From Aphanocapsa sp. GSE-SYN-MK-11-07L (GTDB lineage Bacteria > Cyanobacteriota > Cyanobacteriia > Thermosynechococcales > Thermosynechococcaceae), in contig JAHHGS010000095.1 of NCBI GenBank assembly GCA_019359715.1, forward strand, positions 1-49,881: a stretch of DNA of 49,881 bases, given 5' to 3'. Shown here in pieces: positions 1,606-27,306 of the stretch. Every line of letters begins with the position of its first letter. Positions within the stretch are counted from its first letter, which is position 1. The notes under the pieces were generated by a model that had not been told where the DNA came from, did no database searches, and saw only the letters and a list, made by a program, of their open reading frames with translations. Made by a program: the position numbers and the translations under genes.

Positions 1606-2973
1606 TTACCAAGTGGCTTTAGCTTCATAACCTTGAAGAGTATCAGGATGACTGGCGGCTTTTGTTTTTAGAAGATAAAGATGCAGAAAAGAACTCATCA
1701 ACATCCTTGCAACTTTAAACAATGTGATCAGATTTAACGGTTGCTTGTTTCGCAAGCTCTGAACGAATAAGCGAGGATTAAGCAATATAGCCCACGGAAA
1801 TGTATCAGCAACAATCGACTCAATGTTGTGTTGACCGTAATTGAGTTTCAATGCCTCTATGCCAGACATCCAGCGAGTCATTTGCTCCAGCCAAGCTAGC
1901 TTTGATCTATCATCTGGAACAGTCTCATACTGGTCTGGAACACGATTAGTCTGAATCACATCCAGGCACAGCTCATGCTTGAAACCAGCGTGCTCTGCCA
2001 AAATAGTCAACTGAATATCCTCCAACCTTGCCCCTGGATACCGTTCTGAAATCACTGTTAGCAGGCTAATAACTACGTCAGATCTGCCAACGGTTCCCCC
2101 GCCAGGTTTTAACTGATAACCAGGGTAATATCCATGCACAATATTTAAAAACCAAGGAATTGGCGGCACATCTTGGCTGAAATCAGGCAAAAATATCTGT
2201 AATCCGTCCTGCTCAAACGGCTGATACACTGTGTGTCTGGGAGTAGCGCCGAGAATATCTAGGTCTGGATGATGGTTTAGCTGCTCAAGGATAGGCTGCA
2301 AACCATTAGAATCTAAATTAGGAGATAAGCCCGGTTGATCAAGCAAAAACTGAGATTCGGCATCAATCGTGACCAGCAAGGCAGGCAGATGCCAGCCCTG
2401 AGCAATACTGTTGATAAACAGAGAGCCATAAATATCACCTAGAATTCGGATTTTACCAGCCGAATAGGGACTAATTTTTTGATGAATAACAAAAATCCGA
2501 TGCTTTAATGCTAAGGAAGGGTTACTCTGAATGTAATAGGGTTCACCTTGAGCACTGGCATCAGCACATACCTTAGCTGGCAACTGGTTGGAAACCTTTG
2601 CTTCAGTGTACAAATCGATAATTTCAACATCAGAAATCTGATTAAAGCCAGCTATGACTTGTGGACAATCAAATCCATGATTTAAGCCAATCATTACATC
2701 AGCTTTAGCGCCAGCTTCAGCGATCTGAGCAATGATTTTAGGGATCGTGCGGGGTAAGTACCTTTCAGCCCCGCTTCCCGCGGCTAGAACGACTAGTACT
2801 CGATTTAAATCAAGACATTGGTTGGTTTGGGACTTGATCCATTTCTGACAAGATAAAACGCTCTCGACATCTGCGCGTAGTTTTTTGTTTTGCTCTGCCC
2901 GGAAAGTATGAACTGAGATACCAGTAGATTTGGTCAAAGAATCGGTTTTTACAGAGCGCTTGGTTAAGGTCAT
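1606..2973 (-). CDS. Putative GT-A type glycosyltransferase, last gene of the polyketide operon
   Basis: This is a 455-residue protein that I recognise only by fold. An early strand-loop segment (LVVLAAGSG) is followed by a second strand ending in IGLNHGFD, and further on by LLVTIDAES, which could be the metal-binding DxD-like motif of a GT-A sugar-nucleotide transferase. A glycine-rich PGGGTVGRSD segment and a hydrophobic C-terminal stretch (LITLFKVARMLMSSFLHLYLL) follow; the latter could hold the protein at a membrane. It is not obviously the HglT glucosyltransferase of heterocyst glycolipid synthesis. It lies 86 bp downstream of the SDR gene on the same strand, so glycosylation of the cluster's lipid product is a fair inference. 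The ATG at 2973 has no clear ribosome binding site. The family call is tentative. Confidence 0.5.
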   Translation of the reverse strand: MTLTKRSVKTDSLTKSTGISVHTFRAEQNKKLRADVESVLSCQKWIKSQTNQCLDLNRVLVVLAAGSGAERYLPRTIPKIIAQIAEAGAKADVMIGLNHGFDCPQVIAGFNQISDVEIIDLYTEAKVSNQLPAKVCADASAQGEPYYIQSNPSLALKHRIFVIHQKISPYSAGKIRILGDIYGSLFINSIAQGWHLPALLVTIDAESQFLLDQPGLSPNLDSNGLQPILEQLNHHPDLDILGATPRHTVYQPFEQDGLQIFLPDFSQDVPPIPWFLNIVHGYYPGYQLKPGGGTVGRSDVVISLLTVISERYPGARLEDIQLTILAEHAGFKHELCLDVIQTNRVPDQYETVPDDRSKLAWLEQMTRWMSGIEALKLNYGQHNIESIVADTFPWAILLNPRLFVQSLRNKQPLNLITLFKVARMLMSSFLHLYLLKTKAASHPDTLQGYEAKATW

Positions 2974-3059
2974 GAGATCTGTTTGATGAGGGCTTGCAGA
3001 TGTTTCCAGTTGAGTAACATTCTATTTCAGAGAATAATGTTTTATACGGTTCAGAGGGT

Positions 3060-4037
3060 TTAATTGACGAGATTGTTTTTTGATAGCCAATCTGCTGTGC
3101 GTTCCATTCCCTTGGCTAAATCAATTCGCGGCTGATAGCCCAATAACCGAGTTGCTTTTTCAATTGAATAGGCGTGTGATCGCGTCACAAAATCAATTGA
3201 TTCTGGCAGCAAATCAGCTTTTTTCCCCATCTGGCGCAGCGCCGTTTTCGCGGCTAAAGCAGGAACAGAGATCACTGGTTTAGGATACCCGCCAATTTCA
3301 GCTAGACATTCATAATATTCTCGCCAAGTAGTCTGACCGCCATCAGTCAGATTGAAAGCCTCTCCATAAGCCTCCTTCTCTACGGCTAAAAAGACTCCAT
3401 CAATTAGATTGTCAATGTAAATATGATTACAAATGCCGCGTCCACCATTTACTAACACAAACTTTTTCTTTTGCATCATGCTCAATGGTTGCATTACCCA
3501 AACACTTCCACCCGGCCCGTAAACATCGCCAGCTCGGATCACAATTATCCCAAATTTGTCGGCATGGTTGAGTTTAAGAACTTCCTGTTCGCTTTCTATT
3601 TTAGTCTGGCAAAATGGATTTTTTTGATTAACCAGCGGCTGATCTTCAGTCACGCAATTGGGAAAATGAAAACCATAGACCAACACACTAGAGAGATGAA
3701 TAAAGACTTTTGCACCGGCCTGTTTAGCGGCAGTGGCAGTTTTGATGGTTCCTTCGACATTAATGGCCCGGAATGAATCTATCGCGCCACTGGCATCGTT
3801 CTTAGATACAGTATGGAATACAATATCTGCCCCTTGACAGGCTTCTACTAATGTCAGTTCATCGTTCGTGCTGCCAATATGGACGGTTGCTCCAAGTTCC
3901 TCGGCTAGCTGAGCTTTTTCAGGTGAAAATTCTAGTCCCAGCACTTTCATTCCCCGTTCCAAAGCCATTTCAGCCGCCCGTCGGCCAATAAAATCACCAA
4001 TTCCGGTAATTAAGAGCGTTTTACTTTGTAAATCCAT
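3060..4037 (-). CDS. Extended SDR (NAD-dependent epimerase/dehydratase family) with Phe at the catalytic Tyr position
   Basis: The 325-residue protein begins with a Rossmann motif (TGIGDFIG, residues 11-18) and has the usual Ser region (HLSSVLVYG, about 114-122). It resembles extended short-chain dehydrogenases of the 3-beta-HSD/epimerase type, which oxidise or reduce hydroxyl or keto groups on sterols, sugars or polyketides using NAD(P). The YxxxK motif reads F-C-Q-T-K, with Phe142 where the catalytic tyrosine should be and Lys146 kept. The codon is TTT on the coding strand. The protein may therefore be inactive as a dehydrogenase, work by a different acid, or only bind ligand. It starts 11 bp after the end of the ICMT gene, so it is probably translated from the same message. 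The substrate is unknown; a keto or hydroxyl group on the lipid product is the contextual guess. Confidence 0.8.
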   Translation of the reverse strand: MDLQSKTLLITGIGDFIGRRAAEMALERGMKVLGLEFSPEKAQLAEELGATVHIGSTNDELTLVEACQGADIVFHTVSKNDASGAIDSFRAINVEGTIKTATAAKQAGAKVFIHLSSVLVYGFHFPNCVTEDQPLVNQKNPFCQTKIESEQEVLKLNHADKFGIIVIRAGDVYGPGGSVWVMQPLSMMQKKKFVLVNGGRGICNHIYIDNLIDGVFLAVEKEAYGEAFNLTDGGQTTWREYYECLAEIGGYPKPVISVPALAAKTALRQMGKKADLLPESIDFVTRSHAYSIEKATRLLGYQPRIDLAKGMERTADWLSKNNLVN

Positions 4038-4048
4038 AACAGCCCACT

Positions 4049-4657
4049 CTATGACAAGATGTTTTTGGCAGAAAGCTTAATCCGTCTGAACTTTGGGATC
4101 AAGTGGGGGTGATCTTTAAACAGTTGAGCATAGTTACTGTCTTCAGATAAAGCCTTTTCTTCAGCTCGGATGCGCCAGACGATTAAGATTGCGTTCGCAA
4201 CACTGAAGCCGATCGCTGTCAGGTAGGCTCCGTGAATCAGCGGCAGCGCCACGATTTCTAGACTGACTCCTAACCAGTTGGGGTGACGCAGATAGCGGTA
4301 GATGCCAGTATCGATCGCAGAGGCACCTGGAAGCGTGACGATTGGCAAAGTCCAGCGTTGCCCCAGTGCTTGCATTGATAAATAACGCAGGCTTTGACCA
4401 GCGATCACCATCATGAGTGAGATGACGGCTAACAGGGGGACAAACGGACGATTTAAACCCCAAACCTCAACAATCATGCCCACAAACCAACTGATTTGGA
4501 GGGCTTTGACAACTCCGATTAGATTAGAGCCATGCAGCCGTCCCCCCTGAGCCAACAGAGTAGAAACGTTTCTTTGGCTGATCCGAAGTTCAATTGCGCG
4601 CTGGATCACAACAGCGGCAATAATGACTAAGAAAATAGCTCTAGTAATCGATAGCAT
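4049..4657 (-). CDS. Isoprenylcysteine carboxyl methyltransferase (ICMT)-family membrane methyltransferase
   Basis: This 202-residue protein has several hydrophobic segments. Its C-terminal half carries the family signature: GIYRYLRHPNWLG, then a glutamate-containing helix (RIRAEEKALSED) and a YAQLFKDHP-like end. ICMT-family enzymes transfer a methyl group from SAM to substrates at the membrane. In Bacillus the YpbQ/BpsB member sits beside a type III PKS and O-methylates alkylpyrones. The same pairing is seen here, so O-methylation of a type III PKS product is the likely role. I chose the ATG at 4657 over the upstream in-frame start at 4717 because GAGG lies 8-11 nt before it. The TGA stop of the type III PKS overlaps that ribosome binding site, which suggests translational coupling. 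Confidence 0.85.
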   Translation of the reverse strand: MLSITRAIFLVIIAAVVIQRAIELRISQRNVSTLLAQGGRLHGSNLIGVVKALQISWFVGMIVEVWGLNRPFVPLLAVISLMMVIAGQSLRYLSMQALGQRWTLPIVTLPGASAIDTGIYRYLRHPNWLGVSLEIVALPLIHGAYLTAIGFSVANAILIVWRIRAEEKALSEDSNYAQLFKDHPHLIPKFRRIKLSAKNILS

Positions 4658-4667
4658 TAATGATTCC

Positions 4668-5792
4668 TCACCACTGCAAGAGAATTGCTTCCTGGGAGAA
4701 ACCTGGCCCCATGCCAATCATCAGGCCATAGGTTCCTGGCGAGGGCTGATCTTTAGAAGCGAAAAGCTGATTCAGCATATAAATCACGGTCGCGGATGAA
4801 ATATTACCCACCTCTGCCAGGGCCTCCCAGCTCAAATGCAACTGCTGCGGCTCCAGCCCAAACTCTTCTGCAACGGTATCTAAAACCTTGGGGCCGCCTG
4901 GATGGACGATCCAGCGATCGATTTGCTCAATCTTTAAATTGTGATCTGCCAGGAGGGGGTCAATCAGCTTCCGCAATCCATCTTTGAGATACTCTGTCAC
5001 CTGCGGTCTGAGGATATTGCGAAAACCAGTATCGACAATATCCATCCCCATCAGATGTCCAGTGTTTGGTAGCAGGATCGAGCGAGTGTCGATTACGCGC
5101 GGTCTACCCGGTTGAGCGAAGGGATGATCTTCACCGACGACTAAAATCGCGGCGGTGCCATCGGCAAACAGGGCCGCCGTCACAATATTGGAGATGATAT
5201 CACTATAGATGGCTGGATTTTCCGCTAGCTGACTGACCTGAGACTGTAAATCTAACTGCAAAGACCCCTGCCAGAGTGCAGAGGAAAGCTCACCCACAAA
5301 CATAATCGCCGCCTCGGTTGGGTGCCCTTGGAGATATTCTGCTATCCGTGACAAGCCAGCCGCCCCACCCATGCAGCCATAGCCAAACAGAGGCAATCTT
5401 CGGACGTAGGGCGAAAAGGGAATCCGATTCATCAACCGGGCTTCCAAGGGTGGAATCGCAATTGTTAAGGTGACGGAAGCCAGCAACGATATCGTCTGCG
5501 GATCGACTTGCGTCTGCTCTAACAGCTTTCGCACCGCTCCCTCAAACAGGTTCAAGGCTGTTTCCAGGGTGGCGCGACTTTGGGTGGCAAAGCCCTGCAT
5601 GTCATAGAAGGTGTCCAGCGGCAAAGCAAAGTATCGACCTTTGACTTTGACATTGCTAAAGAAGCGATCGATGGTATCTAAGTCGAAGTCTAGATCCATT
5701 GCCATGCAGTATTTGCGGAGCGCTACAGCCAGTACTTCCTGGCTGTAATAACTGGAGGGAAAATTAGTCGCGGTCGCAACAATTGAAACCAT
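4668..5792 (-). CDS. Type III polyketide synthase (chalcone/alkylresorcinol synthase family)
   Basis: The 374-residue protein has the full type III PKS triad: Cys140 (GYGCMGG), His297 (VHPGGP) and Asn330 (VGNISS), plus the C-terminal GMGPGFS loop. These homodimeric thiolase-fold enzymes extend an acyl starter with malonyl-CoA and cyclise the product to a pyrone, resorcinol or phloroglucinol without a built-in carrier protein. The sequence looks closer to bacterial long-chain enzymes (BpsA, PKS10/18, ArsB/C, SrsA) than to plant chalcone synthases, so a long-chain starter is likely. It sits directly after the KS-AT-ACP-TE gene (13-bp gap) and before the ICMT gene (10-bp gap). The sequence cannot tell which ring type is made. 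Start: ATG 5792, preceded by AAAAGGAG about 6 nt upstream. Confidence 0.93.
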   Translation of the reverse strand: MVSIVATATNFPSSYYSQEVLAVALRKYCMAMDLDFDLDTIDRFFSNVKVKGRYFALPLDTFYDMQGFATQSRATLETALNLFEGAVRKLLEQTQVDPQTISLLASVTLTIAIPPLEARLMNRIPFSPYVRRLPLFGYGCMGGAAGLSRIAEYLQGHPTEAAIMFVGELSSALWQGSLQLDLQSQVSQLAENPAIYSDIISNIVTAALFADGTAAILVVGEDHPFAQPGRPRVIDTRSILLPNTGHLMGMDIVDTGFRNILRPQVTEYLKDGLRKLIDPLLADHNLKIEQIDRWIVHPGGPKVLDTVAEEFGLEPQQLHLSWEALAEVGNISSATVIYMLNQLFASKDQPSPGTYGLMIGMGPGFSQEAILLQW

Positions 5793-5805
5793 AGTGCATC
5801 TCCTT

Positions 5806-8800
5806 TTACTGAAGTACGGGCCTGCGTATTTCCTGAGCGATCGCCATTAATAGTTCCTGTTGAGCCGTGTGCAGAAAGAAATGATCGCCAGGAAACAGGG
5901 TGAGCGTAAAATCGCCCCCGGTCTGATCGCGCCAGGCTGCCAACTGGGCCTGGTTAACTTTGGCATCTTCAGCCCCGCCAAAGGCGGCGATTGGGCAGGC
6001 GAGCGGGGGCTGGGTGGTATAAAAGTAAGTTTCTAACAGCGCGAAGTCCGCCCGGAGGGCGGGCAAAAACAGGCGCATCAACTCTGGATTTTGCAAGACT
6101 TCCTCTGGTGTACCCTTGAGACGGCGCAGGGCTTCTATGAACTGAGCATCTTCCAGACGATGAATTGGCAAATCTAAATCAGGAATCTGCGGGGCCCGAC
6201 AACCGGAAACTAAGAGTTGCACCGGAGAAGGTAAATTTTGCTTCCGCAGTTCCCGCGCCAGTTCAAAGCAAATCAGTCCGCCCAAACTATGCCCAAACAG
6301 CGCAAACGGAGTCTCTAAGTCGGCTCGAATTAAAGGAACAAGGGTCTGAATTAGGATAGCTAAACGAGTCAACGGCGGTTCACCAAACCGGGCTTCCCGG
6401 CCCGGAAGCTGGATTGGACAAACCTCAATCTCGGCGGGCAACATCTCTGACCACGGGCGGAAAACCGAAGCTCCAGCCCCAGCGTAAGGAAAGCAAAATA
6501 GACGCAACCGGGCGGCTGGGCGCGGATGAGGACGAGTGATCCAAACATGAGCGCTTTGTTGAGCGACATTGCGATCGCCATCGGGGGACTCTGGGACTGG
6601 GTCAGCAAACAGTTTGCCTTCCACAATCAGCAGCAGTTGGGTCACAAACTGGTCAACGCTCAAACTGGCAAAGTACTCCAGGGGCAGCACCACCTCTAGA
6701 TCTTGCTCGATCCGGCGGATCAACTCCACGGCCATTAAGGAGTCTAAGCCCAAGTTATACAGCGGTTGGTCTAAGTCCACTTTGCCGGTTGATAGCCCCA
6801 TCACTTTCGCTAACAGCCCGCTTAGGTAGGTTTCTAAAAGCGGGTGCCGATCGCCCGTTTGCGTTGCTAAAAGCTGCGATCGACTGACTTGCCACTCGGC
6901 AGCGATTGCAGCAGCTTCTGGTCCAGGTTCAGTTGCCTTACCTGTTGGTGGCTGATTTTGCTCATCTTCGTCTAGCCAATACCGCTGGCGCTGCCAGGGA
7001 TAGGCCGGTAACGAAACGGGCTGGCCGGTCGGATACAGTTTCCGCCACTCGACCGGAGAGCCAGCGGTATACAAACTGCCGAGGGCCCCTAGCATAACAA
7101 GTCGCTCTGGCTCCTGCCGCCGCAGGGAGGGCAGTACAATGCCAGCCTGGTTGCGATCGCGCAAATACTGGGAAATGTACATACCCAGAATCGGGTGGGG
7201 GCTAAGTTCAACAAACAGGTTGTGCTTGCGGTCTAACAGGTGTTCTACTGCCGCCGCAAACTGGACTGGCTCTCGAATGTTGCGGGCCCAATAGTCAGGG
7301 TCGAAGGCTTCGCCCGCTTGGGTCTGACCCGTTACCGTCGAAATGATTGGAATTGATGCTGCTTGGGGTTGGATGCCGGCTAGCGATCGGGCCAGCTCGG
7401 CCTGATAGGCAGCCATCTGCGGACTGTGGAAGGCATAGTTAACCCGCAGCAGCTTACAGAAAATCTGCGCTTGTTCTAGAGATTGGACGACTTCTAGAAT
7501 TGCTTCACCCTCCCCTGACAGCACCAGCGAATTCGGGCTGTTGATGGCGGCGATCGCGATTCGCTGATTATACTGGGCAATTAAACGCTTAGCTTCCGGC
7601 AGCGTTAACTGCACGGCGGCCATCTTGCCGTGCCCCGTGCCCTGCTGCATTAGCCGTCCCCGGTGGAAGACAACCTGGACGGCATCCGCCAAGCTGAGCG
7701 CCCCAGCCACATGGGCGGCAGCAACTTCGCCAATGCTGTGCCCGACCACGGCGTTCGGCTCAACTCCCCAAGCCCGCCACAGGTTAGCCAACCCGACTTG
7801 CAGGGCAAACAGAGCGGGCTGAGCCACCTCGGTTTCGCCCAAGCGAGACTTGTCTTCGTCTGCCTGCAATTCCCCCAATAGTGACCAATTGGCTAGGGGG
7901 GCCAACAGCGCATCACACTGCTCAATCGTGGCTCGAAATACGGGTTCTTGGGTCAAGAGTTCCCGTCCCATCGCCCACCATTGCGGCCCCTGACCAGAAA
8001 AGACAAAGGCTAATTTTGAGCGCCGATTCGGCTGCTTTTGCCCAACTGATAAGCCTGGCTGAGCTTGATCTTGTTCAAACGCTTCCAGAGCCACTTGCAG
8101 TTGCTCAAGATTGGCAAAGGCAACGCTGAGCCGATGGGGATGATGACTGCGACGAACGCTGGCCGTATAGCAGATGTCCAGGGCTGCGGCAGATTTCAGA
8201 TCATCTCGGTAGGCTTTTGCCAGCGCTTTCAGGGCGATGGGGCTGCGAGCAGACAGCGGTAGTAGGTAGGCATTACTTGGCGGTGGACTGACTGGGCAAG
8301 TCGGAGCCGCCGCCGCCAAAATCACGTGGGCGTTGGCACCGCCAAACCCAAAGGAGCTGACGCCTGCCACCGGCTCGGCTTCTTCCGGCCAGGCTGTGAG
8401 GGTTTGCTGCACCCGCAGCGGCAGTTGCTCAAACCGAATGTAGGGATTAGGGGTTTGGAAGTGCAGGCTGGGCGGCAGTTGGCGGTGCTGTAGCATTAGG
8501 GTCAGCTTGATCAGACCGGCAATCCCGGCGGCGGCTTCCAGATGACCAATATTGGTTTTGACAGAGCCGATCGCGCAGGGTTGATTTGGGTCGCGATCGC
8601 TGACCAATACCGCCCCCAGCGCCTCGGCCTCAATCGGATCACCCAGAGCTGTGCCCGTACCGTGGGCCTCAACATAGCTAATTTGGGCCGGTTTAAGCTC
8701 GGCATTGGCGATCGCCTGTTGGAGTAAAGCCTGCTGAGACAAGCCATTCGGAGCCGTCAGCCCGTTGCTGCGCCCGTCTTGATTAATCGCGGAACCCTTG

Positions 8801-9579: not shown

Positions 9580-9887
9580 CCCTCCTCCGTTGCGGAGTTG
9601 ACCGCCAAAACTTCTGGCTGTTCGGCTAAGCGTTGGGACAGCAACTCAATCGTCGGATAATTCCAGACCAGGGTGGGCGGAATCTTCAAACCCAGCGACT
9701 TTTCAGCTCTACTAACAATAATCATGGCCTGAATTGATTCCAGCCCGAATTCGCTGATCGGCGATCGAATATCAATCTCATCTGGATCAAGACCAAGCTG
9801 TTCGGCAATTTGAGCGACCAACCAGTCCTGAATTTCCTCAGCACTGGCCGTCAACTCCGAGTTGGGGTCAGGTTTGACGTGTCTCAT
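9576..9887 (-). CDS. Free-standing acyl carrier protein
   Basis: This protein of about 103 residues is a single carrier domain with the phosphopantetheine attachment Ser near residue 51 (EFGLESIQAM). It is followed by the helix region (PPTLVWNYPTIELLSQRL) typical of PKS and HglB-type carriers; the HglB N-terminal domain in this cluster has nearly the same wording ([15 protein letters not shown]). It probably shuttles acyl chains between the two large synthases or to the type III PKS. The frame stays open to 10001, but the homology begins only after about residue 45, and the upstream part overlaps the methyltransferase gene. I chose ATG 9887, which has GGGAT a few bases upstream; ATG 9893 is also possible. 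The stop overlaps the start of the KS-AT-ACP-TE gene in an ATGA. Confidence 0.85.
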   Translation of the reverse strand: MRHVKPDPNSELTASAEEIQDWLVAQIAEQLGLDPDEIDIRSPISEFGLESIQAMIIVSRAEKSLGLKIPPTLVWNYPTIELLSQRLAEQPEVLAVNSATEEG

Positions 9888-9918
9888 GTGCATCCCATTT
9901 GACGCATTAATTAAGCTT

Positions 9919-10725: not shown

Positions 10726-10820
10726 ATTAATCCTCAGAAACGCTAAAACAGATTGGGCTGGCTTAAGTGATCGGCGCTGATTAAGGCTCAATCAAGACTG
10801 CTTGAGCCTGATTGACATCT

Positions 10821-12335: not shown

Positions 12336-12336
12336 G

Positions 12337-14001: not shown

Positions 14002-14062
14002 AGCTAATGCTCACATTGGGGGTGAATCAGTCAGATTAAATTAATTTGATTTATAGTTAGGA

Positions 14063-17059
14063 CTATTTCCGAGTTGTCGAATGATTTGAGGAATGATGAT
14101 TTAACGGCGATTGATTGGTTAAGGTTTGATCGGTCAGAAACTGTTCAGACAAAGTAATTTGCATCTTAATCATCTCGCTGATTTGCTGGAGCGAATTGTG
14201 ACGATACTGTAAAAGCACTGAATGGTTTTTCGCGATCGCCGAAAAGTTTTCCGTCGGAACTTGGTGCTGATAGCCAAGCAGAAGCGGCGACTTGATTTTT
14301 GAATAAGATCTGTGATTCATTTTTGCACCGATCGCATGGTTGTTTTGCAGCCTTACTTTTCTGCCATTTTGCGAGTTTGAATTAGGCTTGTTTTCGTGCC
14401 CATTCATTGCAGCCTGAGTTTGCTCCGCCAAGGTTTGATTGGCAATATTTTTGTCGTTGGTGATAGTTGAACCATCAGGAATAATTCGTTTTTGGTCGAG
14501 TGCTAGAGCTGCAGAGAACTCTCTATTTTGATTAAAACCCGATTGATTTTGACCGTACAACACTGACAGGTCTAGTGACACCCGATGGCTGAGCAGCTTG
14601 GCCAAGGCTTTCAAAATAGAAGCAAAATCATCGACTCCTCGTTTATTGAGGGAAATTGTAACCTGATCCTGGGAATTGAGAGTTTCATTAATCCATCGAG
14701 AGCAAATTCCGCCTGCTCCCACTTCAACAAAAATTTTGTAGCCGTCCTGATAAGCTTGCTGCAACAGTCGCGGAAAATCAAATTGCTGGCATAACGTGTT
14801 GGCGATGCTATTACCGATCGACTGACTATCAAGGCTGATTGGTTGACAATTAGCCGCTGAATAAAGCTTGACCTTGGGCAAATTTTGGATCGGCAGCGTG
14901 TTCAATTTTGCCAGCTCGGAGTGTTCCGATCGCATGGCTTCGCAATGAATAACATGCTTAAACGGAGCCTGAATCGCATCACAGGCTAACGTTTCAATCA
15001 CTGTTTGGCAAGCTTGGGTATGACCGGCAATTACCACTTCTTTTGGAGAATTGATTTGAGTCAAGTAAACTCGTTGCTGATTTTTCAGGCAATCTATCAC
15101 CTGCGAGGCAGGTGCAATCAGAATATAGCTACTCCAAAAGTCTTGCTCTAGAAGCTCTGCGCTGGCTCCCCAAAACTCTCGCACGGCGTACTTTGGCCCA
15201 GAGAGTCTTTCCTCAAATAAAGGCGAAGACAGTAACGCACTGCTGCCTTGACTAAAGTTGTTCCAAACCCCTTGGGCATACATCATGCTAATTTCACCCA
15301 AACTGTACCCTAAGGCAGCCTGGGGCTGGATTTGGAAATAATCTCGCATCACCGCTGTCAACAGGCTAGCGATCCCAACTTCGGACTCAAACATAACTGG
15401 CAGGTCATCCAGCAATTTCTGCTCTAGTCGTTCAGACTCTCGGTTAGAAAGTTTATGCCGGCTTCTGGGATAGAGCAGTTTCTCAATGCTCGTCAAACGA
15501 TTGGTCACACTCTTGATCACCGGATCGTCATAGACCTTGGGAAACAGCTTGAACAGGTTGCGCCCGACCCCAACATAGGCGCCAAAAGCGCCAGGGTAAA
15601 CAAAGGCGATCGCGCTTGTTCTACCCAGAGGGTTGACGGTCAGGTAACTACCAACCGGGGTTTGCCAGTCTTTACCGGTTTCAAAAGCTGTATTAATGCC
15701 CTTAAATGCCCGCTGAATTTCCCGCTTTAACTCATCTTTGTTGCGCCCCAGAATTGCCAGGGCGTAGGTGGCTTCAGCCTGGGTTTGGAACATTTTGAAG
15801 GTCTGACTTGCAGTTTCAGCCAGAGAATCACTATCTGTAATTGCTTGTTCCAGTCCTACAAGCTGCTCAAGTAAAGCTGATTGCCGATCGGCGGCGATCG
15901 GAAACAAATAAAACGGCATTTGCTCCAAGTATCGGCTTTGACGATCAGGCTGGCTGCTGTCCTCTGACAGAATGATATGGGTGTAGCTGCCATTAAAGGT
16001 CAAGCTGTTGATCGCTGCTACCCGCTGAGTTGCTCCCTGGTTCAGAAACCACGGGCGCGATTCAGTTGGAACATAAAAGGGGCTGTCTTGCCAAAGCTCC
16101 GGTTGCTTTGGGCCGCTCCACTGCGGTATAGCTGGAATAAATCGGTGATAGAGGCAGAGAGCAGCTTTAATCAAACCAGCCAGTTCCAAACCAGTCTGAC
16201 CGATATTCACCTTGGCGCTGCCGATCGCGCAACTGAGTTCTGATTCTACAGTTTGATAGGCGGTGATCAAGCCCTGAATCTCAGCTTGGTCTTGGTCAGG
16301 CTGACCACTGGCTGTAACCTCCAGGTAGCCGACATTAGCAGGTTTGACATCTGCCTGCTGGAAAGCCAGTTGACAGGCTTGCTGAACTAGCAGATTTGGA
16401 GATTGAGTATCTGATGCTTGCTGCACCTGACTCACGGCATCGATAATAGCGTAGATGCGATCACCAGCTTGCTGGGCTGTTTCCAAGCGCTTCAATACGA
16501 CTGCACCCGCTCCTTCGCCCGGTACTTGATCCTTGGCATTCAGGTCATAGCTCAGCGTATGAATATCAGGTTGGGATTCTAAGCCAACATTCGTTAGATC
16601 TGCTAAATCTTCGAGCAGGTTGACTGCTCCGATCAGCACCGCATCCGCTTCGCCAGCAGCGAGAATTTGTTCGGCCGCCTTGAGAGCATCGAACAAAGAA
16701 TTGGCGACTGATTTCAGGCTGACCGCTGATTTTGGCCATTTCTGCTGCAACGCCTGCACTGGCAATTCAGTAGGGCCAATCATGATGATGCCTAAACGTC
16801 GGCCAGTAGCAGAGCCGAAATCTTGCAAAGCTCGGTCTGCAACTTGCAGTGTCAGTTGAGAAGGATCAAAGTTGCCGATCTGCTGACGTGTCTGACTTTG
16901 CGCCCCCCTAGCCCCCCAAGTTTGGGGGGAACCAGATTGGAAGTCCCCGTCATAAATACTGCGCTCAAAAGCATCTAGTCCATCGCAGGTTCCCCACCAG
17001 GAATCCATACCGACAATTGCCAGCTTGGTTGTTCCAATTGTTGTTGTAAGACTGGTCAT
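14063..17059 (-). CDS. HglC/PfaB-like protein: degenerate ketosynthase plus acyltransferase
   Basis: This protein of about 998 residues has a KS-like half (about 10-430) and an AT half (about 480-830), as in PfaB of PUFA synthases and HglC. The KS half has lost all three catalytic residues: the Cys motif aligns with LKSVANSL (Val for Cys), the HGTGT region reads LEVTASGQ, and NIGH reads NIGQ. It therefore probably acts as a chain-length-factor-like partner and not as a condensing enzyme. The AT half keeps its nucleophile in GYSLGEISM (near residue 585). The last 130 residues are low in complexity and then helical with spaced His/Gln/Leu residues, possibly a docking tail. ATG 17059 has AAGGA about 8 nt upstream; the longer frame starts at a TTG at 17080. 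A palindromic repeat lies inside the gene near its 5' end (see that entry). Confidence 0.87.
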   Translation of the reverse strand: MTSLTTTIGTTKLAIVGMDSWWGTCDGLDAFERSIYDGDFQSGSPQTWGARGAQSQTRQQIGNFDPSQLTLQVADRALQDFGSATGRRLGIIMIGPTELPVQALQQKWPKSAVSLKSVANSLFDALKAAEQILAAGEADAVLIGAVNLLEDLADLTNVGLESQPDIHTLSYDLNAKDQVPGEGAGAVVLKRLETAQQAGDRIYAIIDAVSQVQQASDTQSPNLLVQQACQLAFQQADVKPANVGYLEVTASGQPDQDQAEIQGLITAYQTVESELSCAIGSAKVNIGQTGLELAGLIKAALCLYHRFIPAIPQWSGPKQPELWQDSPFYVPTESRPWFLNQGATQRVAAINSLTFNGSYTHIILSEDSSQPDRQSRYLEQMPFYLFPIAADRQSALLEQLVGLEQAITDSDSLAETASQTFKMFQTQAEATYALAILGRNKDELKREIQRAFKGINTAFETGKDWQTPVGSYLTVNPLGRTSAIAFVYPGAFGAYVGVGRNLFKLFPKVYDDPVIKSVTNRLTSIEKLLYPRSRHKLSNRESERLEQKLLDDLPVMFESEVGIASLLTAVMRDYFQIQPQAALGYSLGEISMMYAQGVWNNFSQGSSALLSSPLFEERLSGPKYAVREFWGASAELLEQDFWSSYILIAPASQVIDCLKNQQRVYLTQINSPKEVVIAGHTQACQTVIETLACDAIQAPFKHVIHCEAMRSEHSELAKLNTLPIQNLPKVKLYSAANCQPISLDSQSIGNSIANTLCQQFDFPRLLQQAYQDGYKIFVEVGAGGICSRWINETLNSQDQVTISLNKRGVDDFASILKALAKLLSHRVSLDLSVLYGQNQSGFNQNREFSAALALDQKRIIPDGSTITNDKNIANQTLAEQTQAAMNGHENKPNSNSQNGRKVRLQNNHAIGAKMNHRSYSKIKSPLLLGYQHQVPTENFSAIAKNHSVLLQYRHNSLQQISEMIKMQITLSEQFLTDQTLTNQSPLNHHSSNHSTTRK
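16901..16935. repeat. C/G-rich palindromic repeat inside the HglC/PfaB-like gene
   Basis: The plus strand reads CCCCCCAA-GT-TTGGGGGG at 16912-16929, preceded by another C6 run at 16903-16908 and a TAG spacer. This layout matches a short palindromic repeat that I recall from intergenic regions of many cyanobacterial genomes. Here it stays in frame and encodes the segment SGSPQTWGARGAQSQ, about 30-40 residues into the protein, in a loop before the conserved FDP region of the KS fold. No second copy was seen in the window. The family identification rests on memory of the motif and needs a genome search. Confidence 0.6.
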
Positions 17060-17106
17060 GATTGATTCCTTAAATACCAACGGACAGAGGCTCAGGTCAG
17101 CGAAAA

Positions 17107-20100
17107 TCAGACTGGAACAACTTTAGCGGTTGCCCCTTTGCTGATCAGAGATTCATAGGTAATCTTCGATCTGAGTTCTAAAGCTGAAGGTAAAACGGTG
17201 GCCTTGGCCCCAATCATCTGGGTGTAAATTCTACCTTCGCGATCGTGGCTGATCACATCAGCAATGATTGTTGTTTTCTTGCGGGATTTGATTTCTGTTG
17301 AGACATAGAACAGCGTATCAAACGGAATCGGGGCGAAATGTTCAAATCTTTCAATTCCGGCTGGTAAACAACCTTGCTGACAAAGATGCTGTAATAACAC
17401 CCAGGTTGATTGAATCTGGACATCAGCAATGAAGGGATTAACGGTTTGGAGCGGAAACTGCCCTTGTTGTCTGGCGCTCAAACTGGGCAACAGACATTCT
17501 GCCGTAAGTCTTTCGGAGCTGGCATTTAAGATTGCCGTGATTCCCTGGAAAGATGGCCCATGAAACAGACTACCAGCCCCGTTTTGATAGAAAGGATGAC
17601 TCAGTTCAGTGAAAGATTGATCCTGGATTAACTGCAAGCCCTGATGAATCGGAGCAGTCGGGGTTTGTTGTTGCAGCAGCACTCGCGTACTGAAGTGATA
17701 GCGAACCTTCCCATCTTGATTTTGACTCCAGATTTTCACCTCGCACTCGATGGAGCCAGGACTGGTTTTATCAATTTCCTGGACATCAAGAATATACTCG
17801 TTAGCTAGGTTTTCATCGAAGATAATCCCCTTCAAAACCTTGTAATTCTGGCAGTGGAAGAAACGATAACCCGGATAGAATTGCTCACAAATATTGATCA
17901 TCCAGGTCAGAGCGCAGGTGGCTGGTAGAACAGCATGGCCAGCAATCACATGATCCTGGAGGAAAGGATTTTTCTCCAAAGTTAAGCGACGACGGATTTG
18001 AAACGACTTTAAGCTTGGATCGAGTTTCTCCGGTACGTGAACCAGAGGACTGCCAATCAACACCTGGGGGGTTTCTGCTGCCAATTCATTCACAAGCATC
18101 TGAGTGCCAGTTTGGAGCGGGATTAGGTCAATCTGGCGCTCTGCAAAGGCTTTTTTGAGTTCTGGGCTGACCATGCCGCCTTCCCACGGGCCCCAATTAA
18201 TCGCAACCGCATGACAGTTAGGCGAGTGCTGCTTGAGCAAGTGAGCCGATTTGTTGAGGATTTCGTTGGCGATCGCATAATCCGACTGCCCAACATTGCC
18301 GTAAAAGCCGACCACCGAAGAGAACAAAATCAGTTGATGAAGTTGATTAGCACTCACACAGCTCAACAGATTTTCCAGCCCCTTCACCTTGGCGTTATAA
18401 ACGGTGTCAAAATCTCGCTCAGATTTCTTCTCAATTCGTTTGTCGGCTAAGTTACCAGCGCCATGAATGATCCCGGTGACTGGGCCTAAACGCTCGATCA
18501 GTGGCGAAAGTTCGGTTCGGAGAGCAGCCAGATCCGTAACATCGACGCTCAGGTACTCAGCCTCTCCGCCTACCTGGGCGATCGCCGCTAGGGTTTTGGT
18601 AATTTCCCGTTGGGAGGCAATGACATTAAACTCTGCCTGTACCATCAACGGAGTAACTTTCTTGCCTTCCAGCGTCAAGCGATCAATAATCTGCTTTTTC
18701 AGGTCTGCTTCACTTTCGTATCCCGCCGCCCAAATTGGCTCCGCTTCCGAATGAACAGAACGCCCCAGCAAAATGAACTTACATTTGTGCTGCTTGGCAA
18801 TTTCTACTACGCACTGGGCGGTGATGCCTTTGCCACCCCCACTGACTAGAAATACCGAGGCTTGATTAATCCGGCTATTGACTGGCACCAGGGCCGCCGG
18901 TTCGCAAACCAAGGTTGACCGTCCCTGCAAGCTGTAGCCAACTTCGGTCAGCAAGCAGTTGGGATCGTGCAGTTCATCCCAGATCGCTTTAACCGATTGT
19001 TGAGCGCTTAGATCAGGGTGAAGATCGATCGCTCGGCAAAATACAGCCTGCCATTCTTGATTCAGGGTTTTGGTCAGTCCAAATAAACCGGATGGAATCA
19101 CGCTGAAATTGATCTGCTGCCCTAACCCAAATTCTCCATCCAGACGCGCCACCGTCATAAAACAACTGCGTCCTTGACCAGCAGCTTGATTAAGCGGGTC
19201 TTTAAGATGCTTAGCAATCAGAAACACCTGTTTTAGCAAAGCTGCATCACTGTCCTGAAAGCAGATCTGACCAGCTTGATTGGCCTGAGAAACCGGATGG
19301 AGATGGATAAAGGCGGAAATTGAGCCGTGGGTGGCAGCGATCGCCGCTAACTGCTGTTGCAGGTGTTCTTCGCTGAAGTCTGCTAGGCTAACTCGGTTCA
19401 CTGGCTGAGGCAAAGCAGAGGTCGCCACTCCTGGGAAACTGAGGACAACAGTTTGCCAGCCCCATTCAGTCAGAGCCTGAGCCAATTTTTGAGTGGTTGG
19501 GGAACCATCATCGCTCAGCAAGCAAATGTGACCCGCTGGCAGAGTAAAATCCAAGTAATCTGGTTCCGGCAGAGCTTTCAGCTTGACTGGGCTGCGGAGA
19601 ATTTTGCTATCAAGCTCTGGATTGCTCTCTGCTGGCTGCGGGCTTGGATTTGGATCAGTCGTCGAATCAGCCTCAGGCGCTTTGATCCAAGCCAGCAGTT
19701 GCGAGAGCGTAGATAGCTCTGTCAGTTGTTCGGAAGTCGGCTGGGTTAAGTCGGGACAGCGCTCTAGCAGGTCATCAATGATTTCCACCAGTTTGACGGC
19801 ATCAATTCCTAAGTCTGCATCGATCGCCATATCCATACCCAGCATTTCAGGTGGATAGCCAGTTTGTTCACTGACCACAGCCAGTAGGGTTTGAAGAATG
19901 TCATCAATATCTTCGATGTCATTAATATCTTCAGCAGCTTCGACAGCTTCGGCTAAGTCTTCAGCCCTGTTCTGAGCAGACACTAGTTCTGGCGCTTTGG
20001 GTTCAGCAACTTCGGCGATCGGATTCGCGGCTGCTGGCGCAGCGCTGGAAGCAGAATCCGCAACTTGGGACGGCGCTGGGGGCTGTGCGAGTAGAGTATG

Positions 20101-23100
20101 AATATACTCAGCAATTTGTTCAAGCGATCGCAGTTCTGCCAGTTCGTCCGGGTTGGGCTGGGGCAGACCCGGATAGAGATCCATGAGTGTACCCAGAATC
20201 TCAACCCGCTTAATTGAGTCGATCCCCAAATCAGCTTCCATATCCATCTGTAGCTCCAGCATGTCGGCGGGATAGCCCGTCTTATCGCTGACAATACCGA
20301 GCAAGGTTTGCGTGAGCTGTTCAATATCAACAGTGGCTAGTGCTACCGCAGCGACTTCTTCAGTTTTCTCTATAGGAGAAATTTCCTCGACAGGAGCGCT
20401 TTCTAGCTTGACTGGAACTGAGACTTCAGGTGGCTGAGTTTTCGGGCTAGCGATCGCCACCAGATGTTCCTGAACAGATTTATAGTCCTCGACCACAGTG
20501 TGACCGTTAGCATGACCATTGCCGTTGCCGTGACCATTGCCGTTACTAGATCCGTTCCTAGTCTTCAGCTCGGCTTCCAGTTGACTGTGACTGATCGGTG
20601 GCAGTGCTTCAAATTCGTAATCAGTCGGCTGATCAATAGAGTGACCATTCAGAGCAGCGAAATCGCCCTGCAAGAGCAGCCCATACTGTTCCTTCACCAA
20701 TTGGAAAAACTGGTTGTTATATTCCATCTCATGGTTAAGAAACTGTTCATGGATCTGGAGAGTTTCGGCTTGATGATGATGAAACTGCATCATGCTCCGC
20801 TCTGAACTTTGCAGAATTTCTCGCTTGATTTCCGCCTCTGGCTGAGCAAACTGACTGCTGCCAAACAGCGACTGCTGCTGTTGCATCAGTTGAAAGAAGA
20901 TTTTGGCGTATTCCGTTTGGCTCTGGAGAGCCTGGGTATGAGCTTGCAGCACATCAGATTGATGATGATTAAACTGAGTCAGCGTTTGCTCAATACTGCC
21001 CAAAACAGGATGCGGATCGACGGCATTGGCGAGCTTTTGGAACGTGTCTTGACGGGCGACTGGCTGCAAATCTTTGGTATTGCCAGGGGCAGCATTAGAT
21101 AACGTCGGTTCAGGAACTGTCTCGATTGGCTCAGCCTGAGTCGTTTTGCTATCTGCTAATTGAACACGATGCCCGTTTTGTAACGCCTGCTCGAAATTCA
21201 TTTTTGTTTTTTCCGCTAGGTTGACACTGCTCAGCCGCACATTGAGTGCACTATTTTTGGGTGCCTGGGTCATTTTCTGCCCAAGCTGGAAGGGATCACA
21301 GGCTTGCAATGGCAAACCAGCCACTCTTAACTGCACTACCGCTTCTCGCAACTGGCGATCGCTGTCCTTTTGGCGACTGCCATTCAGCGCAACCGCTAAA
21401 TGCGGGCGATCGCCAAGAATTTCTTTAACCAGATTGGTCAGAATACTTCTTGGCCCAAATTCAACGAAGAAATAGCCGCCGTCCGCATAGATATTTTCAA
21501 TTTCATCTTTGAATAGGACGGAATTGAGCAATTGCTCCTTGAGGATTTTCTGAATCGCTTGCGGTTCGCTTGGATAGCGTTTGCCAGTCACGTTGCTGTA
21601 CACGGGCACAGCGGTTTGCCTAAAAGTGACGGATTCCACCGCTTGGGCGAAGGGCTGTTGAGCATGGGCCACCAGCGGGGTATGGAAGGCGGCCGAGACA
21701 GGCAGTAAAACCGTTGAGAATCCTCGCTCGGTTAGAACCTGTTCTACCTTGGCAATTTCTGGCTTTGCTCCAGCTAATACTACCTGCCGAGGAGAGTTCC
21801 AATTAGCGACAGAGATTCTCTGGAATTCTTTGATCACAGACTCGATTTGAGTCACATCCCCTTCGACAGCCAGCATTGCTCCCGCATCAAACTTGGCATC
21901 CTTGGGCGTGGCCATCGCCTGACCCCTGGCTTTGACCAAGAAGAAGTAATCTTCGTCCGACAAAGCCTGATTCGCCCAGAGGGCGGTCAGTTCGCCGAAG
22001 CTGTGCCCAGCTATAAAGTCGGGCTTAAAGCCACCCTGCTGCAAAATCTTATAGAGTCCAGCGCTGATAGCGCCGATCGCGGGCTGAGCATATTCCGTTT
22101 GCTGCAACCGTGCCACCTGAGCCTGCCGAGCCTCTGGATCAAACACGGGTGGCGGAAAAACAGTTTCTGACAGCGACTGTAAACCATCGTTGAGCAACAG
22201 CCGATCCAAGTCGGTGAAGGTTTGGCGCAAGGTCGGAAAATTGATCACCATTTCCCGCCCCATTTCCAGGTACTGGGAACCTTGCCCAGAAAACAACGCG
22301 ACCACCTTGCCCTCAGTCACCATCCCCGCTTTGCGGTAGTAAATTCCCTGTGGGTGCTCCCAAGACTCAGCCGCTCCCATTTTTCGGAGCCAAGTCAGGC
22401 TGGTTTTCAACAAACTGCGGGCTTGGCTCAACGAACTGGCGACAAAGCCAATTCGAGCGTCTGAAGTTGGAATGGCGATCGCTTGGCTCGCTTCAATCAA
22501 GGCCTGATACTCCTGCTCTCCGGTTTCAGATTCCAACTGCAAGCCGAGTTGCTCACAGCGGGCAGTTAGTTCTTCTACCGTCGGCGCATTCACCAGCACA
22601 GACTGATCGGGTTGATGAAGCCGATAGGGGCGATCGTGCTCACCTTCATACTCTTCCAAGACAACATGGTAATTCGTCCCGCCGAAGCCAAAGGAACTCA
22701 CCCCAGCTCGCCTTGGTTCTGCTAGATCAGAATGAATCCAGGGGCGAGTTTCTGTATTTAAATAAAAGGGTGAACTCTCTAACTGCAATTTAGGATGCGG
22801 TTGAGTCACATTAATCGTCGGTGGCAGCACCTTATGGTGGAGCGCCAGCGCAGCTTTGATCAGGCTAGCTGCCCCAGCCGCAGCTTTCGTATGCCCAATT
22901 TGAGACTTCACGCTACCGAGGGCAATCTGCTGATTTTTGGTTTCATACTCGCCAAAAAACGCTTTCAGGGCAGTCACCTCGGTTGGATCACCCGCCATCG
23001 TGCCGGTACCGTGGGCTTCGATCAGCCCGACAGTGGTTGGCGAAACGCCTGCATCTTCATAGGCACGGCGCAGGGCATTAACTTGCCCCTCTGGGCGCGG

Positions 23101-24171
23101 CGCATAGATACTCTTATAGCGACCATCGCTAGAAGCACCAATGCCCCTAACCACAGCGTAAATGCGATCGCCGTCTCGCTCAGCATCCGCAAGTCGCTTC
23201 AAAACCAGCATCCCGACCCCTTCACCCAGCATCATGCCGTCAGAGTCAGCATCAAACGGACGCACCTTATCACCTTTAGAAACCGCCGGAGTTTTGCTAA
23301 AGCACATGTAAGCAACAATTGAGTTGTCAGTGTCAACGCCACCCGTCAGCATCATGTCACTGCGTCCTTCAACCAACTCGCTGATCGACATTTTCAGTGC
23401 CCCCAACGAACTGGCACAGGCAGCATCGACAACGCAGTTCATGCCGCCAAAATCAAGCCGATTTGCAATCCGGCCGGCAACCACGTTTGCTAACATACCG
23501 GGGAAAGCATTCTCCTCCCACTGCACGTAGGCGCTCTTAATTTTCTCGACAATAATTTGGGTATCTTGATCAGACAAGCCACTGCTTTTAAGCGCTTTTT
23601 CCCAAATTGGATACTCTAACCGGCTGGCCAGGGGCATACTTAATTGCCTGGCCAAGGCGACACCCAGCACCACTCCAGTCCGCTCATGACTATACTGCCG
23701 AGACTCTCCGTAACCGGCATCTTCCATTGCTGTCTTAGCAACGGCTAGGGCTAGCAACTGGGAAATATCTGTGACTTCCAAAATGTTAGGCGGTAGACCA
23801 AATTCCATTGGATTGAAATCAATCTCAGGAATAAAACCACCGCGATTGCAATAGGTTTTATCGGGCGCTTTAGGGTCGGGATCGTAGTATGTGTTGACAT
23901 CCCACCGGGAAGCTGGAACATCGGTAATACAGTCTAATTTGCGGATAATGGTTTCCCAGTATTCCTGTAAATTTAACGATTGCGGAAAAATAGAAGCCAT
24001 TCCGACAATAGCGATAGGGGTTTGTTGTAATTGATCGTTAATCCGATTAATTCCTACCGTTTTTTTAGACATCGTTTTCTTCCTTTTTTTCAGCCCGTCA
24101 AGAGCTTTTTCTAAATTGGCTAACTCGTTTTGCAATTGTGCTAAGGCTGCACTAATTCCTGTGGCATACAT
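17107..24171 (-). CDS. HglE/PfaA-like iterative synthase: KS-AT-ACP-ACP(dead)-KR-DH
   Basis: This 2354-residue protein opens the operon. The KS (about 50-500) has Cys252 in DAACASS, then HGTGT and QIGHTKAAAG. The AT (about 630-940) has Ser724 in AGHSFGE. A linker with two copies of a helical 44-residue repeat (about 1055-1170) and a Gly/Asn/His-rich stretch follows. Two carrier domains come next: the first has Ser1319 (LGIDSIK), the second has Ala1458 (LGIDAVK) and cannot be pantetheinylated. The KR (about 1790-2030) has a GGGKGIT cofactor loop and Tyr1965 (SDYAIAN). The C-terminal DH (about 2050-2330) has His2074 in HVIAGHAVLP and a second-half Asp in IADVQIQ. It should iteratively build and process a long acyl chain with the PfaD reductase. 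ATG 24171 gives a coiled N-terminal extension; ATG 24072, with GGAAG upstream, is an equally credible start (2321 residues). Confidence 0.93.
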   Translation of the reverse strand: MYATGISAALAQLQNELANLEKALDGLKKRKKTMSKKTVGINRINDQLQQTPIAIVGMASIFPQSLNLQEYWETIIRKLDCITDVPASRWDVNTYYDPDPKAPDKTYCNRGGFIPEIDFNPMEFGLPPNILEVTDISQLLALAVAKTAMEDAGYGESRQYSHERTGVVLGVALARQLSMPLASRLEYPIWEKALKSSGLSDQDTQIIVEKIKSAYVQWEENAFPGMLANVVAGRIANRLDFGGMNCVVDAACASSLGALKMSISELVEGRSDMMLTGGVDTDNSIVAYMCFSKTPAVSKGDKVRPFDADSDGMMLGEGVGMLVLKRLADAERDGDRIYAVVRGIGASSDGRYKSIYAPRPEGQVNALRRAYEDAGVSPTTVGLIEAHGTGTMAGDPTEVTALKAFFGEYETKNQQIALGSVKSQIGHTKAAAGAASLIKAALALHHKVLPPTINVTQPHPKLQLESSPFYLNTETRPWIHSDLAEPRRAGVSSFGFGGTNYHVVLEEYEGEHDRPYRLHQPDQSVLVNAPTVEELTARCEQLGLQLESETGEQEYQALIEASQAIAIPTSDARIGFVASSLSQARSLLKTSLTWLRKMGAAESWEHPQGIYYRKAGMVTEGKVVALFSGQGSQYLEMGREMVINFPTLRQTFTDLDRLLLNDGLQSLSETVFPPPVFDPEARQAQVARLQQTEYAQPAIGAISAGLYKILQQGGFKPDFIAGHSFGELTALWANQALSDEDYFFLVKARGQAMATPKDAKFDAGAMLAVEGDVTQIESVIKEFQRISVANWNSPRQVVLAGAKPEIAKVEQVLTERGFSTVLLPVSAAFHTPLVAHAQQPFAQAVESVTFRQTAVPVYSNVTGKRYPSEPQAIQKILKEQLLNSVLFKDEIENIYADGGYFFVEFGPRSILTNLVKEILGDRPHLAVALNGSRQKDSDRQLREAVVQLRVAGLPLQACDPFQLGQKMTQAPKNSALNVRLSSVNLAEKTKMNFEQALQNGHRVQLADSKTTQAEPIETVPEPTLSNAAPGNTKDLQPVARQDTFQKLANAVDPHPVLGSIEQTLTQFNHHQSDVLQAHTQALQSQTEYAKIFFQLMQQQQSLFGSSQFAQPEAEIKREILQSSERSMMQFHHHQAETLQIHEQFLNHEMEYNNQFFQLVKEQYGLLLQGDFAALNGHSIDQPTDYEFEALPPISHSQLEAELKTRNGSSNGNGHGNGNGHANGHTVVEDYKSVQEHLVAIASPKTQPPEVSVPVKLESAPVEEISPIEKTEEVAAVALATVDIEQLTQTLLGIVSDKTGYPADMLELQMDMEADLGIDSIKRVEILGTLMDLYPGLPQPNPDELAELRSLEQIAEYIHTLLAQPPAPSQVADSASSAAPAAANPIAEVAEPKAPELVSAQNRAEDLAEAVEAAEDINDIEDIDDILQTLLAVVSEQTGYPPEMLGMDMAIDADLGIDAVKLVEIIDDLLERCPDLTQPTSEQLTELSTLSQLLAWIKAPEADSTTDPNPSPQPAESNPELDSKILRSPVKLKALPEPDYLDFTLPAGHICLLSDDGSPTTQKLAQALTEWGWQTVVLSFPGVATSALPQPVNRVSLADFSEEHLQQQLAAIAATHGSISAFIHLHPVSQANQAGQICFQDSDAALLKQVFLIAKHLKDPLNQAAGQGRSCFMTVARLDGEFGLGQQINFSVIPSGLFGLTKTLNQEWQAVFCRAIDLHPDLSAQQSVKAIWDELHDPNCLLTEVGYSLQGRSTLVCEPAALVPVNSRINQASVFLVSGGGKGITAQCVVEIAKQHKCKFILLGRSVHSEAEPIWAAGYESEADLKKQIIDRLTLEGKKVTPLMVQAEFNVIASQREITKTLAAIAQVGGEAEYLSVDVTDLAALRTELSPLIERLGPVTGIIHGAGNLADKRIEKKSERDFDTVYNAKVKGLENLLSCVSANQLHQLILFSSVVGFYGNVGQSDYAIANEILNKSAHLLKQHSPNCHAVAINWGPWEGGMVSPELKKAFAERQIDLIPLQTGTQMLVNELAAETPQVLIGSPLVHVPEKLDPSLKSFQIRRRLTLEKNPFLQDHVIAGHAVLPATCALTWMINICEQFYPGYRFFHCQNYKVLKGIIFDENLANEYILDVQEIDKTSPGSIECEVKIWSQNQDGKVRYHFSTRVLLQQQTPTAPIHQGLQLIQDQSFTELSHPFYQNGAGSLFHGPSFQGITAILNASSERLTAECLLPSLSARQQGQFPLQTVNPFIADVQIQSTWVLLQHLCQQGCLPAGIERFEHFAPIPFDTLFYVSTEIKSRKKTTIIADVISHDREGRIYTQMIGAKATVLPSALELRSKITYESLISKGATAKVVPV

Positions 24172-25249: not shown

Positions 25250-25263
25250 TCAGGTTATTTTTT
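25228..25263. terminator. Bidirectional A/T-rich hairpin terminator at the 3' end of the ParB-domain gene
   Basis: Arms AAAAAATAA-t-CC (25228-25239) and GGTTATTTTTT (25253-25263) pair over 11 bp with one bulged base. The A run on one side and the T run on the other make it usable from both directions. The TGA of the ParB-domain gene (25252-25250) lies in the loop. Confidence 0.55.
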
Positions 25264-26617: not shown

Positions 26618-26632
26618 ACACATCCTCGTAAA

Positions 26633-26914: not shown

Positions 26915-27306
26915 ATAGTGCCCACTTAAACATCATTAATATCATTGCTCCCCATTTTGGCTTCGGTTACTAGCTGAGCGAACTAGTAATTTTTGCTCAA
27001 AAGGTGTACAGATTCAAAAAGAATTGGCTATAATTCTGCCAAGACCTCAGCACTGCCCTCTTCGAAAGTATAGGCAAGTAATAGGCTCAGTGTGCTGCCG
27101 CCCAGTTTTCTCTCTAGTCCTGAGTAAGCCGACTCAGACAGTTTTGCTCGATCGCGTTTGGCTCGGTGGCTAAAAGGTGAGAGTGTCAAGATATCAATAC
27201 TGGATCGTTAACTGCTTGAATTGCTGCTTCGGTTCAAGAAAGGTTCTACCTCCTTCATTTGTAATTTGTATCCCTCAAACTAAACTAATATTTGGAAGTA
27301 ACAATC

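Follow-up and report, generated by a model that had tools for sequence, protein, structure and literature searches.

A contig of the cyanobacterium Aphanocapsa sp. GSE-SYN-MK-11-07L (JAHHGS010000095.1, positions 1 to 49,881; this whole stretch of 49,881 nucleotides is called the window below) carries a putative operon that joins an Hgl-type synthase, similar to the synthases of polyunsaturated fatty acids (PUFA), to a CylI-like type III polyketide synthase (PKS). We propose, with a probability of roughly 0.58, that the product of this locus is an exported, long-chain O-methylated alkylresorcinol. The coupling of the two kinds of synthase is not unique to this genome.

Gene content of the window and the proposed chain relay

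Eleven closely spaced genes run along the minus strand from 1606 to 24171, as described in the first-pass annotation; all coordinates agree with the list of open reading frames (ORFs) of the window, and neighbouring genes are separated by -83 to +86 bp when the longest ORFs are taken. The functional locus reaches beyond the limits first given, since a ParB_N gene, an exporter and a phosphopantetheinyl transferase extend it past 24171 to approximately 31.4 kb. Every family call made at that stage was backed by Pfam or NCBIfam, with the exception of a glycosyltransferase that remains only likely. Scans of the window for promoter and terminator consensus sequences gave no excess of sites over shuffled sequence, and an Rfam scan returned no match.

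The first four genes of the run are of Hgl type. The HglE/PfaA-like synthase (17107-24171, 2354 aa) combines, according to Pfam and NCBIfam, ketosynthase (KS), acyltransferase (AT), two acyl carrier protein (ACP), ketoreductase (KR) and dehydratase (DH) domains in the order KS-AT-ACP-ACP-KR-DH, scores 2168 bits against TIGR02813 (above cut-off) and displays the motifs DAACASS (KS), GHSFGE (AT), YAIAN (KR) and LGIDS (first ACP); in the second ACP, the serine is replaced by alanine (LGIDA, at about residue 1458). It is followed by an HglC/PfaB-like protein (14063-17080, 1005 aa; TIGR02816, the PfaB family, above cut-off), whose KS-like domain without cysteine and AT domain make it a protein of the chain-length factor type (CLF-AT), and which is missing the N-terminal KS present in HglC of Moorena and of a Nostocales metagenome-assembled genome (MAG). 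The next two genes encode a PfaD-type enoyl reductase (12337-14001; TIGR02814, 656.6 bits for a cut-off of 449), which also matches the nitronate monooxygenase family of Pfam, and an HglB/HetM-like ACP-thioester reductase (10821-12335; TIGR01746 above cut-off, PP-binding domain), in which both the ACP serine and the YxxxK motif of the thioester reductase are present. The serine-less second ACP and the shortened HglC could be taken as signs of a decayed or mosaic relic, an hgl island that acquired a type III PKS cassette and has ceased to yield a defined product. We consider this highly improbable, as catalytic motifs and reading frames are otherwise intact across the operon, a second ACP with alanine or glycine in place of the phosphopantetheine serine is also found in three other hgl-like synthases (L166, L168 and L172; L numbers designate surveyed loci), and the gene order is kept across lineages.

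Further along the run stand a free ACP of hgl type (9576-10001; PP-binding, with an internal ATG near 9893 as the likelier start), a KS-AT-ACP-thioesterase (TE) extension module (5806-9579; assigned from Pfam, motifs and translated start) and the type III PKS (4668-5792). The extension module displays the motifs DTACSSS, GHSIGE, LGLDSL and GHSLG, and its gene overlaps that of the free ACP by 4 bp (stop/start overlap). Extension modules of this type that act after modular PKSs open with a docking segment of 35-43 residues, helical in appearance; those of the window, Cyanomargarita, the Nostocales MAG and Moorena begin at the KS itself, the start of the Acaryochloris protein being one that could not be placed by motif. 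The free ACP stands upstream of the module in these hgl-linked loci, and its mean score is 242 against ACPs of hgl loci versus 148 against ACPs of clusters with a fatty acyl-AMP ligase (FAAL). A relay through the ACP is thus supported, because the hgl-linked KS-AT-ACP-TE has no docking domain and is accompanied by a free ACP of hgl type.

Two independent pathways might nevertheless lie side by side, the hgl block with HglB leading to a fatty alcohol or diol analogous to a heterocyst glycolipid and the type III cassette drawing on ordinary fatty acids for an alkylresorcinol. Such an arrangement would account for the retention of HglB in the window, for the existence of hgl loci without type III PKS (L166-L174), for the C24 1,3-diols, analogues of heterocyst glycolipids, reported from hgl island-bearing non-heterocytous strains (PMC11804610) and for the divergent halves of the Moorena locus. 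It is rather unlikely, however: a scan of the main genes between 0.1 and 37.5 kb of the window, where the upstream genes are Hgl-type, detected no AMP-ligase or FAAL, whereas in other cyanobacterial loci the same cassette is supplied by a FAAL with an ACP (e.g. L064) or by modular PKSs; moreover, the hgl-type ACP directly precedes the extension module in the window and lies between the two blocks in other lineages, and the type of supplier follows the phylogeny of the type III PKS, as detailed below.

The type III PKS was assigned from Pfam, motifs, its match to solved CylI and its position in a tree. It retains the catalytic triad (Cys in GYGCMGG, His in VHPGGP, Asn in GNISS) and the GCxGG motif; its nearest solved relative is CylI, which forms alkylresorcinols (8YSP; E 2.7e-150, 504 bits), rather than BpsA of Bacillus, and it falls in the cyanobacterial group that holds CylI. 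This grouping makes an alkylresorcinol the more likely product than an alkylpyrone. With the same relay, the enzyme could instead yield a long-chain alpha-pyrone, O-methylated by the ICMT-family protein as in BpsA/BpsB, reportedly a pair of this kind (Nakano 2009, by title); type III PKSs often yield both classes of product, and Pks11, which ranks second among the solved relatives (E 5e-65), is an alpha-pyrone synthase. CylI is far closer, though (504 versus 223 bits), and a pyrone appears improbable. The long-chain O-methylated phenolic lipid anticipated by the first-pass annotation remains likely, its hesitation between pyrone and resorcinol now leaning to the latter through the kinship with CylI.

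From gene content, conserved order, motifs and relationships, which are direct observations, we infer common transcription of the genes and the following chemistry for the alkylresorcinol pathway. HglE with the CLF-AT protein and PfaD would assemble an acyl chain that is very long and for the most part reduced, of approximately C20-C26 by analogy. This chain would move to the hgl-type free ACP, and the KS-AT-ACP-TE would then add one malonyl unit. The CylI-like enzyme would extend the resulting beta-ketoacyl chain and close the resorcinol ring, while HglB probably diverts part of the chain to an alcohol or aldehyde.

Recurrence of the coupling in other cyanobacteria

In a survey of 386 genomes of the phylum, HglE was found in 48 carriers and the type III PKS had five close relatives (49-63%) besides that of the window. 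A search for the same gene order, suggested together with the first description of the locus, was positive in three further lineages, each with a contiguous same-strand operon that stretches from HglE as far as the type III PKS. In Cyanomargarita calcarea (L157/L057/L186), HglE is followed by an O-methyltransferase, HglC, PfaD, the ACP, KS-AT-ACP-TE, the type III PKS, an ICMT-family methyltransferase and an epimerase-family protein. The Nostocales MAG (L161/L062) displays HglE in pieces, HglC, PfaD, the ACP, KS-AT-ACP-TE, the type III PKS and ICMT. The Acaryochloris MAG CRU_2_0 (L162/L073/L187) has HglE in pieces, a KS protein, HglC, a FabA-like protein, PfaD and a GT2 glycosyltransferase, then the ACP, KS-AT-ACP-TE, the type III PKS, ICMT, the epimerase-family protein and DevBCA. 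In Moorena bouillonii (L164/L165/L182), the two halves are adjacent and divergent, the hgl genes facing away from a series made of a CylK-like protein, DevBCA, ACP, KS-AT-ACP-TE, type III PKS, ICMT, an O-methyltransferase and a sulfotransferase. By our own estimate, two unrelated single-copy loci in a genome of 5 Mb have a chance of approximately 1% of being at most 25 kb apart; adjacency repeated in separate lineages is thus not a matter of chance.

The type of chain supplier was then considered on the type III PKS tree (34 rows), where it requires a single change, for a mean of 9.1 after shuffling and with none of 500 shuffles reaching one. On the HglE tree, the type III PKS-linked rows fall into more than one clade (four changes, two of them forced by the starred branches), and gains or losses of the coupling may therefore have occurred repeatedly.

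Several points weigh against an Hgl-fed alkylresorcinol pathway. On the type III PKS tree, the split between hgl and modular suppliers is weakly supported (45/88), and three rows on the hgl side (L070, L072 and L076) come from short contigs that lack hgl synthase genes, so that the supplier signal is suggestive only. A single clade for the hgl-linked enzymes gave p = 0.034 in the approximately unbiased (AU) test; the hgl side is therefore possibly paraphyletic. As to the chemistry, HglB could end the chain ahead of ring formation, the TE has no clear part in the proposed relay, and sequence alone does not separate a pyrone from a resorcinol product.

Other features of the surveyed loci deserve mention. 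An O-methyltransferase (Methyltransf_2) and the sulfotransferase after ICMT in Moorena (L059:11726-13992 and L165:8538-10804) suggest a sulfated methyl ether. In hgl-like loci without type III PKS (L166-L168, L170, L173, L174 and L185), the hgl-type ACP is paired with a PapA-like acyltransferase, and a distant AurF-like protein is found as well in L168 and L174; Hgl chains seem to meet a different fate there. Proteins of approximately 640 aa whose sole Pfam domain is a TubC_N docking domain at the N-terminus are encoded near an hgl-type ACP (L167:3357-5267 and L171:16268-18214). Lastly, the Nostocales genome Centralia_MAG_434 (L158, L160, L161, L062 and L076) apparently contains two hgl-linked type III PKS loci and a further hgl locus, and may mix strains.

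Tailoring, export and alternative product classes

The remaining genes of the run encode two methyltransferases, a reductase and a putative glycosyltransferase. The S-adenosylmethionine (SAM) methyltransferase at 9919-10791 is kin to phthiotriol dimycocerosate and fatty-acid O-methyltransferases, with scores below the equivalog cut-offs, and has homologues within hgl clusters L157 (54%) and L172 (50%). The ICMT-family membrane methyltransferase (4049-4717; PF04140, E 4e-23), which would O-methylate the resorcinol, has the type III PKS as its neighbour in the majority of homologous loci, a pairing that is widespread (Streptomyces, Pseudomonadota, Chloroflexota). For this enzyme, SrsB is probably a better model than BpsB: judging by titles, SrsB is said to be a precedent as an alkylresorcylic acid methyltransferase, and a Bacillus type III PKS/methyltransferase pair is reportedly another. 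The product might be further tailored by an OleD-like reductase and a putative glycosyltransferase. The former, a member of the NAD-dependent epimerase/3beta-HSD family (3060-4037), scores best as OleD-type, below the equivalog cut-off, and has counterparts beside the type III PKS or ICMT in L057, L070, L072, L073 and L076. The latter (1606-2973, 455 aa) may be of GT-A type and of an unnamed family, with conserved DAE, GGG and ED motifs; it has no Pfam match above cut-off (the best being a GT2 family, E 0.11) and no match in a profile search of PDB sequences, and two of its four homologues in the 386 genomes lie inside hgl-type loci of two other genomes. An AlphaFold model from five sequences was discarded, its low confidence (pLDDT, predicted local distance difference test, of 46.9) making the PDB matches, a mix of unrelated folds that included some hyaluronan synthases, unusable.

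Upstream of HglE, a ParB_N-domain protein (25250-26623, minus strand; Pfam) recurs immediately before HglE in L158 (12707-14044) and L171 (115-1449), i.e. in three genomes including that of the window, and is a possible regulator of hgl loci. Divergent from the operon, on the plus strand, are genes for a DevB-type membrane fusion protein (27292-28503; TIGR02971 above cut-off), a DevC-type permease (28506-29741; TIGR01185 equivalog above cut-off) and a DevA-type ATPase (29838-30560; TIGR02982 above cut-off); in many related loci, DevB/C/A-type genes are likewise neighbours of HglE or of the type III PKS. In Anabaena, devBCA is the exporter of heterocyst glycolipids (PMC8064123), and the trio in the window would send the lipid toward the outer envelope. 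A HetI-like phosphopantetheinyl transferase (30593-31375, minus strand; PF01648, NF042922 at 182.6 bits, below the equivalog cut-off of 370) would prime the ACPs. A TPR-CHAT protein past this region (34836-37529) is probably unrelated. Elsewhere, the host genome has another type III PKS, a distant one (G000:C109:24421-25338, L056), as well as a cluster of modular type I PKS (G000:C138, L055).

Two other product classes were considered for the host and set aside. Its genome, 99.5% complete, contains no nifH match above cut-off and no HglE other than that of the window, which makes a heterocyst glycolipid unlikely. Neither a CylC-like match (in a search without positive control) nor a full-length CylK was found in this genome, the closest hit being a partial match of 33% within a frame of 4025 aa; a paracyclophane is thus unlikely as well. 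In Cyanomargarita and Moorena, CylK-like and CylC/AurF-like genes lie in or beside the hgl-linked type III PKS loci (L057:15472-18333, L164:15373-17469, L182:9139-10365 and L186:9238-11881). The CylK homologues match 7RON/7FH7 with E-values of 1e-142 to 1e-150 and, as read from the alignment, keep Arg105 and Tyr473, residues of CylK that have been linked to alkyl-chloride activation (PMC8916777), with Glu in place of Asp440. The CylC-like protein has no PDB match, so that its identity relies on weak similarity to the AurF family and on context. A tentative and rather doubtful extension of our proposal is that Hgl synthases feed a family of CylI-like resorcinol pathways, in which the CylK-like and CylC-like enzymes of Cyanomargarita and Moorena might join the very-long-chain resorcinols into giant paracyclophanes or other alkylated macrocycles, and of which the window would hold a linear, exported, O-methylated version. 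Such loci hint at possible macrocycles with chains longer than those of known paracyclophanes.

Comparison with known systems

The type III PKS beside an ICMT methyltransferase recalls Streptomyces srs and Bacillus bps, and is also found in Streptomyces loci L092-L098. To our knowledge, the srs and bps pairs have no dedicated long-chain synthase.

The window also resembles cyanobacterial hgl and hgl-like islands. Islands were defined by at least 7 of the 19 hgl genes of Anabaena (PMC11804610), and HglE, HglC, PfaD (HglA), HglB, an HgdBC/DevBC-type exporter and a HetI-like phosphopantetheinyl transferase are matched in the window at family level. Unlike these islands, the window adds a type III PKS, a KS-AT-ACP-TE and an ICMT, in a host without nifH above cut-off. 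The same survey, of approximately 3,600 cyanobacterial genomes in 2025, described as enigmatic what islands produce in organisms that form no heterocysts, left the products of the smaller hgl-like islands largely unexplained too, and named Moorea when discussing the ancestry of islands; type III PKSs are unmentioned in its main text. Among the clusters given in a survey of CylC are type III PKS and 'nitronate monooxygenase-containing' ones, with hgl unnamed (PMC8406957). No description of the hgl/type III coupling was found in the open-access literature (supplements excluded), and an earlier account elsewhere is possible. Through the pairing with a type III PKS, a subset of hgl islands of unexplained product would gain an exporter and a testable product class, long-chain alkylresorcinol ethers, predicted to be a new class of exported phenolic lipids in a non-nitrogen-fixing cyanobacterium and several of its relatives.

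The window shares KS-AT-(ACP)-TE, a CylI-like type III PKS and a methyltransferase with the hybrid type I/III clusters of cylindrocyclophanes, merocyclophanes and MKS. In the cyl, cab, mer and MKS clusters, type I modules accompany a type III PKS and, in some of them, a conserved methyltransferase, and the enzymes belong to a type I PKS-fed alkylresorcinol clade (Larsen et al., PMC8086630). However, these clusters use a FAAL and modular type I PKSs with docking domains, whereas the window uses an Hgl synthase. The downstream cassette is therefore already known, and the Hgl-type chain supplier is the new part.

The nearest functional precedent, as first suggested, is the ars system of Azotobacter vinelandii, in which a PUFA-like type I synthase (type P) gives a C22-C26 chain to two type III PKSs for the synthesis of phenolic lipids (PMC3098273, PMC13291983). 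Compared by gene content, the window likewise clusters PUFA-like type I synthase genes with a type III PKS, and could represent a second, possibly independent coupling of this kind. The analogy with ars does not extend to the hand-over, which is direct in Azotobacter and would here probably pass through the interposed hgl-type free ACP and one extension module, the KS-AT-ACP-TE; the window further differs in having a type III PKS that is CylI-like, together with PfaD, HglB, DevBCA and ICMT.

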